From Terriglobia bacterium (lineage in GTDB: Bacteria; Acidobacteriota; Terriglobia; UBA7540): a stretch of 64,000 nt of DNA. Positions 37,437 through 39,428 of the stretch are shown here, piece by piece (the first letter of the stretch is position 1; every line of letters begins with the position of its first letter). Made by a program: the position numbers and the translations under genes. The notes under the pieces were generated by a model. The model was not told the origin of the DNA and ran no database searches. It was given only the letters and a program-made list of their open reading frames with translations. Location of the stretch: assembly GCA_030041095.1 (NCBI GenBank), contig JASHON010000136.1, positions 1 to 64,000 on the forward strand. Direction: 5' to 3'.

Positions 37437-38186
37437 TTACCGCGCCGCCGCCAGCTCAGCCACATTTCCGGCGTGAAGTCCGCATTCCTTTTTGGTTGAA
37501 TCTTCCCACCACCAACGCCCCTCCCTTTCGTGCTGGCCCGGAAGGACGGGGCGGGTGCACGGCTCGCATCCGATCGAAACAAAGCCACGCTCGTGGAGAG
37601 GATTATAGGGCACGTCATTTTCTCGCATGTAGAACCAAAGCTGGGCGGAGCTCCAGTTGGCCAGGGGATTGAATTTTATCAACGGCCGATCCTCTGAGCC
37701 AAAAACGCTGTCGGCCTCTACGACAGGAACTCGGGCGCGGGTCTGAGGGCTCTGATCGCGCCGCTGGCCAGTAACCCAGGCATCGAGGCCGTCGAGGGCC
37801 CTCCGGAGTGGTTCCACTTTACGCACGCCGCAGCATTCCTTATGCCCGTCGCGGTAGAATGAGAACAGGCCCTTTTCCCGCACCAATGCCGCCACATCTT
37901 CGGCACGAGGAAAGAACAGTTCAATCGGGATGGAATAACGGTCGCGGACCGTTTCAATGAACTGGTAGGTTTCAGGATGTAACCGGCCCGTATCCAGCGA
38001 AAATACCCGAAAATCCGCACCCAACTTTGCCGCCATATCAATCAGAACCACGTCTTCCGCTCCGCTGAAGCTGATGCCGATCTTCGGAGAGAACTCGCGG
38101 AACGCGGCAGCTAGAATTTCACTTGGGTGAAGCTGTGCGTATTCGTGTGCCTGTAACTCGACAGTCGAAACCGTGAATTGGTTCAT
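37437..38186 (-). CDS. cysH: Adenylyl-sulfate reductase, 4Fe-4S type (CysH family)
   Basis: A 249-residue enzyme reducing activated sulfate to sulfite with thioredoxin-type donors. The PP-loop region reads ISFSGAEDVVLIDMAAKL. The cluster ligands appear as ECCGVRKVEPL and CEPCTRPVLPGQHERE; this CC...CxxC pattern marks the APS-specific class rather than E. coli-type PAPS reductase. The catalytic Cys is in KKECGLHAG. The ATG at 38186 matches the usual N-terminus; an upstream in-frame start at 38240 adds unrelated residues. Its leader contains a polycysteine ORF and a terminator (38263-38449), suggesting control by attenuation. Confidence 0.93.
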   Translation of the reverse strand: MNQFTVSTVELQAHEYAQLHPSEILAAAFREFSPKIGISFSGAEDVVLIDMAAKLGADFRVFSLDTGRLHPETYQFIETVRDRYSIPIELFFPRAEDVAALVREKGLFSFYRDGHKECCGVRKVEPLRRALDGLDAWVTGQRRDQSPQTRARVPVVEADSVFGSEDRPLIKFNPLANWSSAQLWFYMRENDVPYNPLHERGFVSIGCEPCTRPVLPGQHEREGRWWWEDSTKKECGLHAGNVAELAAAR

Positions 38187-38262
38187 GAGCCTAAGGTCGC
38201 CTCTCGTATAGAGTGTGGTGTTGCGGCTGGCGGCTTGCACTTTCCGCGGCCCAGCCTGAAAC

Positions 38263-38307
38263 GGCCAAAAACAAAAACGCCCGCTGCCGGTTTTCCGTCA
38301 GCGGGCG
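38263..38307 (-). terminator. Intrinsic terminator / attenuator hairpin upstream of cysH
   Basis: On the minus strand CGCCCGCTG (38307-38299) pairs with CAGCGGGCG (38286-38278) over 9 bp. An A-G mismatch and an inner CGG/CCG stem with an AAAA loop extend it. TTTTTGTTTTT follows (38277-38267). It lies 28 nt after the stop of the polycysteine leader ORF and 92 nt before the cysH start. The 5' arm can alternatively pair with the leader (38377-38367). It could also simply end the HMG-CoA lyase transcript. Confidence 0.85.
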
Positions 38308-38335
38308 CTTCGTCGAATCCGTTCAAAAACGAGGT

Positions 38336-38449
38336 CTAAAACCTGGTTACCGACGTCGAAGGGCAGCCGCTCACGGACGGGCGACAACAACAACACTGCC
38401 CCGAAAGCAACTGCAGACCACGGTCCAGATTGGAACCTCGCTTCCTCAT
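38336..38449 (-). CDS. Polycysteine leader peptide for cysH (37 residues)
   Basis: ATG 38449-38447 to TAG 38338-38336. AGGA (38460-38457) is 7 nt upstream, a good ribosome binding site. The peptide starts MRKRGSNLDRG and contains QCCCCRPSVSGCP: four consecutive Cys codons, all TGT (38395-38384), and a fifth Cys (TGC) downstream. The sequence just before the Cys codons (GGGCAG, 38401-38396) can pair with CTGCCC just after (38366-38361). Between them, TCCGTGAGCGG (38377-38367) is complementary to the terminator's 5' arm (38304-38294) with one mismatch. These are the elements of a ribosome-mediated attenuator sensing Cys-tRNA. The peptide itself probably has no other role. Mycobacterial polycysteine short ORFs are a functional precedent. 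Confidence 0.7.
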   Translation of the reverse strand: MRKRGSNLDRGLQLLSGQCCCCRPSVSGCPSTSVTRF

Positions 38450-38528
38450 TTTCAAATCCTGAGTTTAACGGATAACAGAGGTGGGGATCAAGACTTTTTT
38501 TTGGTTTTGTCTTTGGTCTGCTTCTCTG

Positions 38529-39428
38529 TCAGTTTTCCGTGTACTCCCGGCGCATTTCCTGCGTGGCTTCAACGGCGGCAAGCATCGCCCACGGCTCGAT
38601 CCCGGCGGATACGCCGCGGGCTGCGAGGGCGGAGGTGGCAACCTCCGTCGGAATGTTTCCCACCAGCTCATCTCCGGCAAAGGGACAACCGCCCATACCG
38701 GTGAGAGCACAGTCAAAACGCCGGCATCCTGCTTCGTACGCTGCGATCACTTTTTCCGCCGCCGCGTCCGGGCGGCTGTGTAAATGCACGCCAAGCTCGA
38801 CGCCTTCCGCGTTCCGCCGAACTTCACGATACAAATCCCCAATCTGCTGCGCCGTGGCCACTCCCACCGTATCAGCCAGCGACACGGTCTTAACTCCCAG
38901 GCCTTCCAGCCACGATAGCGCTTCCGCCGTCACGGCAGGGCCCCACGGCTCTCCAAATGGGTTTCCAAACGCCATGGAGATATAAACAACCACCTTCACG
39001 CCCGCGGCGCGCGTTGCCCTCAGAATTCTCTCGACCAAAGTACGGGATTCGGATTGGGACATATTGGCATTTTGGCGTCTGAAATTTGCAGAAACCGAAT
39101 AGGGGTAGCCCAGTGTCGTGACGCCGGGTGTGGACAAGGCGCGCTCCAACCCCTTCTCATTGAGAACGAGCCCGATCATCTCCACATTCTGCTGCCGGGC
39201 TGGGTGCTGCGCAGCCAAGACGCTCGTGGCGGAGAGAGATTCCATTACATGCTCGCTGTCCGCCATTTGCGCGACATGTTGAGGAGAAACAAAACTGACG
39301 GCGTCCAGATGCGTAAATCCCAACTCGATCAGCTTGTGAAGATAGCCGACCTTGGCGTTGGTTGGGATCAATTTCCGCAAGCCTTGCCACGCATCGCGTG
39401 GGCACTCGATCAGTTTGATGGTCTCCAT
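38529..39428 (-). CDS. Hydroxymethylglutaryl-CoA lyase
   Basis: A 299-residue HMGL-like TIM barrel. The N-terminus reads IKLIECPRDAWQGLRKLIPT (catalytic Arg-Asp in PRDAWQG), with a metal-site HLHSRPDAA and the signature GMGGCPFAGDELVGNIPTE bearing the catalytic Cys. It cleaves HMG-CoA to acetyl-CoA and acetoacetate, the last step of leucine breakdown. It lies 34 nt downstream of the acyl-CoA carboxylase gene on the same strand, fitting a leucine-degradation operon. The CPRDAWQ sequence differs from the usual GPRDGLQ of classical MvaB, so a related pyruvate-carboxylase-like lyase is a lesser possibility. Confidence 0.87.
   Translation of the reverse strand: METIKLIECPRDAWQGLRKLIPTNAKVGYLHKLIELGFTHLDAVSFVSPQHVAQMADSEHVMESLSATSVLAAQHPARQQNVEMIGLVLNEKGLERALSTPGVTTLGYPYSVSANFRRQNANMSQSESRTLVERILRATRAAGVKVVVYISMAFGNPFGEPWGPAVTAEALSWLEGLGVKTVSLADTVGVATAQQIGDLYREVRRNAEGVELGVHLHSRPDAAAEKVIAAYEAGCRRFDCALTGMGGCPFAGDELVGNIPTEVATSALAARGVSAGIEPWAMLAAVEATQEMRREYTEN

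Follow-up and report, generated by a model that had tools for sequence, protein, structure and literature searches.

The element described here lies on the minus strand of the window (by which we mean the whole 64,000-nucleotide stretch that was analysed), between an HMG-CoA-lyase-like gene (38529-39428) and cysH. Reading towards cysH, it comprises a predicted promoter, a 37-codon leader ORF and an intrinsic terminator (Table 1). The product of cysH is a thioredoxin-dependent APS reductase (TIGR02055 match of 270.8 bits against a cut-off of 235.3); an in-frame GTG is found at 38240, upstream of the ATG of the gene. A search of the 64 kb window against Rfam at gathering thresholds matched zero families, and a general promoter and terminator scan listed neither the promoter nor the terminator of the element.

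Table 1. Features of the cysH leader region in the window
Feature	Position	Strand	Basis or remarks
Predicted -35 box, TTGATC	38486..38491	-	Consensus match, 18 nt from -10
Predicted -10 box, TAAACT	38462..38467	-	Consensus match, by itself no proof of use
Predicted leader ORF	38336..38449	-	37 codons + TAG; MRKRGSNLDRGLQLLSGQCCCCRPSVSGCPSTSVTRF; 29 homologous leaders
Segment 1, 5' side of sequestering hairpin	38396..38415	-	Folds; 1:2 partner-swap (chimera) test
Four consecutive TGT Cys codons (putative sensor)	38384..38395	-	Cys run in all 29
Segment 2a, antiterminator strand TCCGTGAGCGG	38367..38377	-	Pairing in all 29 and covariation
Segment 2b, CTGCCC	38361..38366	-	Pairs with GGGCAG in the local fold of the window
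Intrinsic terminator hairpin	38278..38307	-	Folds; kept in all 29
Segment 3, core of terminator 5' arm CCGCTGACGGA	38294..38304	-	Common to terminator and antiterminator
Terminator T-tract TTTTTGTTTTT	38267..38277	-	Conserved
cysH	37437..38186	-	249 aa, ATG start; TIGR02055 and PF01507 matches

An earlier note on this DNA had proposed a cysteine-sensing attenuator for cysH; the ORF, the four TGT codons, the terminator and the T-tract that it described are all present, every base that it listed being where it was placed. The run of four TGY codons begins at codon 19, in the middle of the ORF, and is unique in the window, where 0.13 such runs are expected by chance. Among the Cys codons of the homologous leader runs described below, TGT occurs 89 times and TGC three times, whereas in the long ORFs of the window TGC outnumbers TGT threefold; the near-exclusive use of TGT may make decoding slower through wobble or prevent the loop from pairing.

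Conservation of the leader, its promoter and its start

Inspection of upstream regions together with pattern searches turned up two close copies of the element, one before cysH in G032 and one before sat-cysH in G022. A covariance model built from these two sequences and that of the window gave a match in 29 of the 40 genomes searched from the order (Terriglobia, Acidobacteriota), with E values of 1e-9 to 1e-33, the next matches being at 4e-6 or weaker. It precedes either cysH or a sat/TauE-cysH operon, and reading only directly upstream of cysH missed most elements because sat or TauE comes first in relatives; the covariance model recovered these. Relatives with a conserved cysH that lack the Cys run or the alternative stems, which the earlier note had named as evidence against its proposal, were looked for: 25 of the 26 genomes with a close cysH (about 65% identity or more) carry the Cys run and the stems, and in the remaining one, G016, the covariance search found no element. 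Four further genomes have the element in an assembly without an intact cysH. A first pattern search and a two-gap pattern run over the class returned mostly chance hits, as many being obtained with a reversed control, and one candidate (L037) was dropped as it lies inside a dehydrogenase gene.

All 29 leaders, which come from many genera, contain a Cys run and a terminator. CCC and CCCC are the usual forms of the run, most leaders continue with S.SG, and several have extra cysteines (C.CCC, CCC..C); outside the cysteines and the S.SG stretch, which base pairing dictates, peptide sequence varies freely. The ATG usually stands 16-19 codons before the run, the stop codon follows 30-51 nt after it (mostly 42-48) and the terminator 72-84 nt after it in 29 of 29. 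Of 80 CysH loci taken from named genomes, all five labelled Acidobacteria or Terriglobia have the element and the remaining 75 (cyanobacteria, Acinetobacter, Methanoperedens and others) lack it, from which we conclude that it did not travel with the gene. Two loci with the element stand apart. L087 (G034:C464:7185-7311) carries no more than two Cys codons; its antiterminator is weak, what follows is a decayed cysH-like stretch, and the locus looks like an attenuator losing its gene. At L088 (G020:C202), the gene after the Cys attenuator is carbonic-anhydrase-like, and no cysH was found in that genome.

Promoter-like hexamers are found at a near-constant distance before the leaders. The end of the -10 box is 66 nt from the Cys run in the window, where it is 12 nt from the ATG, and 62-72 nt from the run in most relatives; the position of the -35 box matches that of TTGACA-like boxes in relatives, the consensus match of the window promoter being only fair (8/12). 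If transcription starts about 7 nt after the -10 box, the predicted 5' UTR measures about 5 nt in the window and at most some 15 nt in most relatives. The earlier note had taken an AGGA (38460-38457) as the ribosome-binding site of the leader; it begins 2 nt after the predicted -10 box and so probably lies at or upstream of the transcript start. Across the family, moreover, pairing to the anti-Shine-Dalgarno sequence before the leaders is no better than in shuffled sequence (-1.33 versus -1.60), and before the downstream genes, whose starts were picked by script and are in some cases wrong, it averages -6.13. Given the position of the -10 box and the lack of a family-average Shine-Dalgarno signal, the AGGA is doubtful as a ribosome site and the leader is probably near-leaderless, without a Shine-Dalgarno sequence.

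Mutually exclusive helices and the modelled switch

The fold of the window leader is more stable than that of 200 out of 200 dinucleotide shuffles (z -4.46), and the leader of G032 gives z -5.43 against its shuffles. Folded alone, 38308-38277 reaches -25.1 kcal/mol and the duplex of segments 2a and 3 -17.6 kcal/mol. The 10 of 11 base pairs between 2a (38377-38367) and the terminator 5' arm (38304-38294) claimed for the window were confirmed, and in relatives the same pairing comprises 8-11 of 11 pairs in 29 of 29. In a MAFFT alignment built without structure (A4), the antiterminator helix of the 29 sequences shows compensatory changes, involving both sides, at 6 of its 11 pairs, and 85.4% of its cells are paired, a value that none of 500 shuffles reached and that compares with 27-58% for slid controls. 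The comparison of leaders suggested earlier thus found both the Cys run and covariation. Since these shuffles leave relatedness in place, we applied a second test in which partners were swapped between genomes. Native partners pair better than swapped ones for the sequestering hairpin 1:2 (-20.0 versus -17.8 kcal/mol; 1 of 20,000 permutations as good), for the antiterminator 2:3 (-19.6 versus -18.0 kcal/mol; 0 of 20,000) and for the terminator 3:4 (0 of 20,000), figures that relatedness can still inflate. By this sequence comparison, the sequestering hairpin is co-adapted as well.

Most sequences place the Cys codons in the apical loop of hairpin 1:2, the 3' strand of which is the start of the antiterminator (in G017, for example, GCGGATGT...ACATCCGC). 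The pairing of GGGCAG (38401-38396) with CTGCCC (38366-38361) proposed for segment 1 is present in the window, where 2a is buried both by GGGGCAG:CTGCCCT and by a longer alternative; its exact form differs in relatives, in which CTGCCC itself is not conserved and in many of which a CGGATG:CATCCG hairpin takes its place and pairs directly with the antiterminator's first half. A consensus fold computed over all aligned sequences shows the terminator alone, as the alternative helices cancel out, and 1:2 and 2:3 were therefore tested separately.

A stalled ribosome was modelled by leaving RNA free from 13 nt past the second Cys codon, with the 3' arm of the terminator still absent. Under these conditions 28 of 29 sequences fold best as the antiterminator, compared with 6 of 29 for the free leader, in agreement with the proposal that a stalled ribosome frees 2a; the exception is G034, with its two Cys codons and decayed gene. 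When the ribosome is shifted along the leader, 7-10 antiterminator pairs form for most placements on Cys codons one to three, and the antiterminator is essentially lost, in the model, once the ribosome is at least four codons past the run; stalling some codons upstream of the run also antiterminates. Full-length free RNA folds with the terminator in 29 of 29. When full-length RNA is folded with the ribosome stalled, the terminator is still favoured over the antiterminator at equilibrium in 28 of 29 and, being the more stable end state, it leaves readthrough to a kinetic route in which 2:3 would have to form first.

From the parts, their conservation, the co-adaptation of partners and the modelled folds, we infer with a probability of about 0.88 that the element is a ribosome-mediated transcription attenuator sensing the supply of Cys-tRNA. 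Transcription would start just 5' of the near-leaderless ORF. With Cys-tRNA scarce, the ribosome would stall on the Cys codons and disrupt the 1:2 hairpin that loops them out, freeing 2a to capture the 5' arm of the terminator (2:3) before the 3' arm is made; no terminator would then form and cysH would be transcribed. With Cys-tRNA ample, the ribosome would run on, first covering 2a, after which 1:2 would refold, the terminator (3:4) would form and transcription would stop before cysH.

Alternatives and known systems

The leader might instead regulate cysH at the level of translation or by way of Rho, as proposed for mycobacteria, with the terminator merely ending the upstream operon. The near-leaderless leaders without a Shine-Dalgarno sequence do resemble those of mycobacteria; however, a strong terminator with a T-tract occurs at the same spacing from the Cys run in 29 of 29, covaries with segment 2a and lies downstream of the leader's own promoter, a position 3' of that promoter from which an operon-end terminator would block cysH. 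We consider this alternative improbable. Somewhat less probable still is that the Cys-rich peptide itself works, by metal binding, thiol redox sensing or a specific nascent-chain arrest: the conserved run and the extra cysteines would fit, but the peptides are otherwise free to vary outside the S.SG stretch while layout and RNA pairing are kept. Riboswitches, the S-box among them, and T-boxes control sulfur genes in other phyla, and either could in principle operate here with the ORF incidental; this we regard as very unlikely, given that the window has no Rfam match at gathering thresholds and that no conserved aptamer-like core is seen outside the alternative helices. Accidental complementarity between a Cys run and an ordinary terminator, although four TGY codons in a row arose in 12 of 100 shuffles of the window, is refuted for practical purposes by the 29 homologues, the covariation and a second locus described below.

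A ribosome-mediated attenuator of this kind appears to work like the trp and his attenuators of Proteobacteria, judging from sequence and folding models. They share a leader ORF with regulatory codons, helices 1:2, 2:3 and 3:4 and a terminator before a biosynthetic gene; the window element differs in sensing, as we propose, cysteine, in being apparently near-leaderless without a Shine-Dalgarno sequence, in its phylum and in having its codons in the apical loop of 1:2, with some 14-15 more codons before the stop. As in amino-acid leaders generally, a pathway-matched codon run in a predicted ORF, an intrinsic terminator and a covarying, exclusive antiterminator occur together. The polycysteine short ORFs of mycobacteria likewise have runs of Cys codons in a short, leaderless or nearly leaderless upstream ORF before cys genes. 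Cys leaders in Actinobacteria have been described without a conserved terminator hairpin (Seliverstov 2005, PMC1262725), and the mycobacterial leaders are reported to have been shown to be translational (Canestrari 2020, as cited in PMC13236596 and PMC9031893). Whereas those ORFs use translational attenuation and carry the run near their end, the window element has it mid-ORF, together with an intrinsic terminator and a covarying antiterminator, which places it outside that class; it is plausible that it is independent of the mycobacterial leaders. Ribosome-mediated attenuation has also been predicted for uORFC-8-2 before cysS in Rhodobacterales (PMC8632094), in which tandem Cys codons lie inside the first stem of a uORF followed by an intrinsic terminator. 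That alphaproteobacterial element has two Cys codons at positions 14-15 and targets cysS, while the run before cysH begins at codon 19; the window element is set apart from it by this description, and the window has no Rfam match. Leader-peptide systems had been known from Proteobacteria and Actinobacteria alone when a 2010 survey extended them to Firmicutes; it found almost no predicted attenuator of Acidobacteria with an associated function (PMC2965389). Our literature search, which covered mainly open-access papers, found no paper on Cys leaders in Acidobacteria. The kind is therefore known and its acidobacterial member new, in a phylum where leader-peptide switches are essentially undescribed.

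A wider set of cysteine leaders

Although the interpretation as an attenuator of cysH is supported, the element belongs to a regulon and does not serve cysH alone. Within the family of the window, sulfite reductase genes are preceded by a second type of Cys leader in 25 of 25 readable upstream regions, a count that leaves out L211, L215, L216, L224 and L225, where the upstream region is unreadable. The genome to which the window belongs has one of these attenuators, preceding an assimilatory sulfite reductase gene (L205:1359-1485; G000:C2:4963-5089), with the leader MIADTHIGRMRCCCNRAPVCGSCV, refound by model R3 at 1e-20, and the terminator AACCCACCATCGG...AGATGGTGGGTTTTTT. Model R3, which was built for the sulfite reductase leaders, failed to extend across the phylum, which indicates that these leaders have a form of sequence specific to the family. 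Cys leaders with terminators, judged by individual reading, are also seen in other families of the class, where they stand before sulfite reductase, sat, cysH and cysD, as well as before a TauE-like gene and a pyridine nucleotide-disulphide oxidoreductase gene. The targets cysH, sat, TauE and sulfite reductase fit the amino acid, as genes of the path from sulfate to cysteine.

Other leaders were seen in passing. At L105 (G044:C41:6046-6162), a Cys-rich leader and terminator precede a pyridine nucleotide-disulphide oxidoreductase, perhaps a sulfide:quinone oxidoreductase. His-rich leader ORFs with terminators occur in the class at L103, L109, L112, L113 and L114, of which L112-L114 belong to the window's family and L112 to its genus; hisI-like genes follow at L109, L112, L113 and L114. 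At L115 (G019:C358:49282-49353), a leader rich in aromatic codons (GRFFYYFSFW) and a terminator stand before a DAHP synthase gene.

We think it somewhat likely that Terriglobia control sulfate assimilation mainly through a cysteine-attenuation regulon that shares some features with the leaderless polycysteine ORFs of mycobacteria and others with classical trp and his attenuation; it would consist of near-leaderless Cys leaders with intrinsic terminators before cysH/sat/TauE, before sulfite reductase and, in other families, before cysD. The roughly 50 natural variants across the family (29 before cysH operons, 24 before sulfite reductase) are ready-made compensatory variants with which the model can be tested in reporters. 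They offer a clean comparison with the mycobacterial polycysteine ORFs, in which the same sensor would be coupled to a different output, and the proposed attenuator would give a major phylum of soil bacteria both a sensor and a mechanism for its cysteine control.
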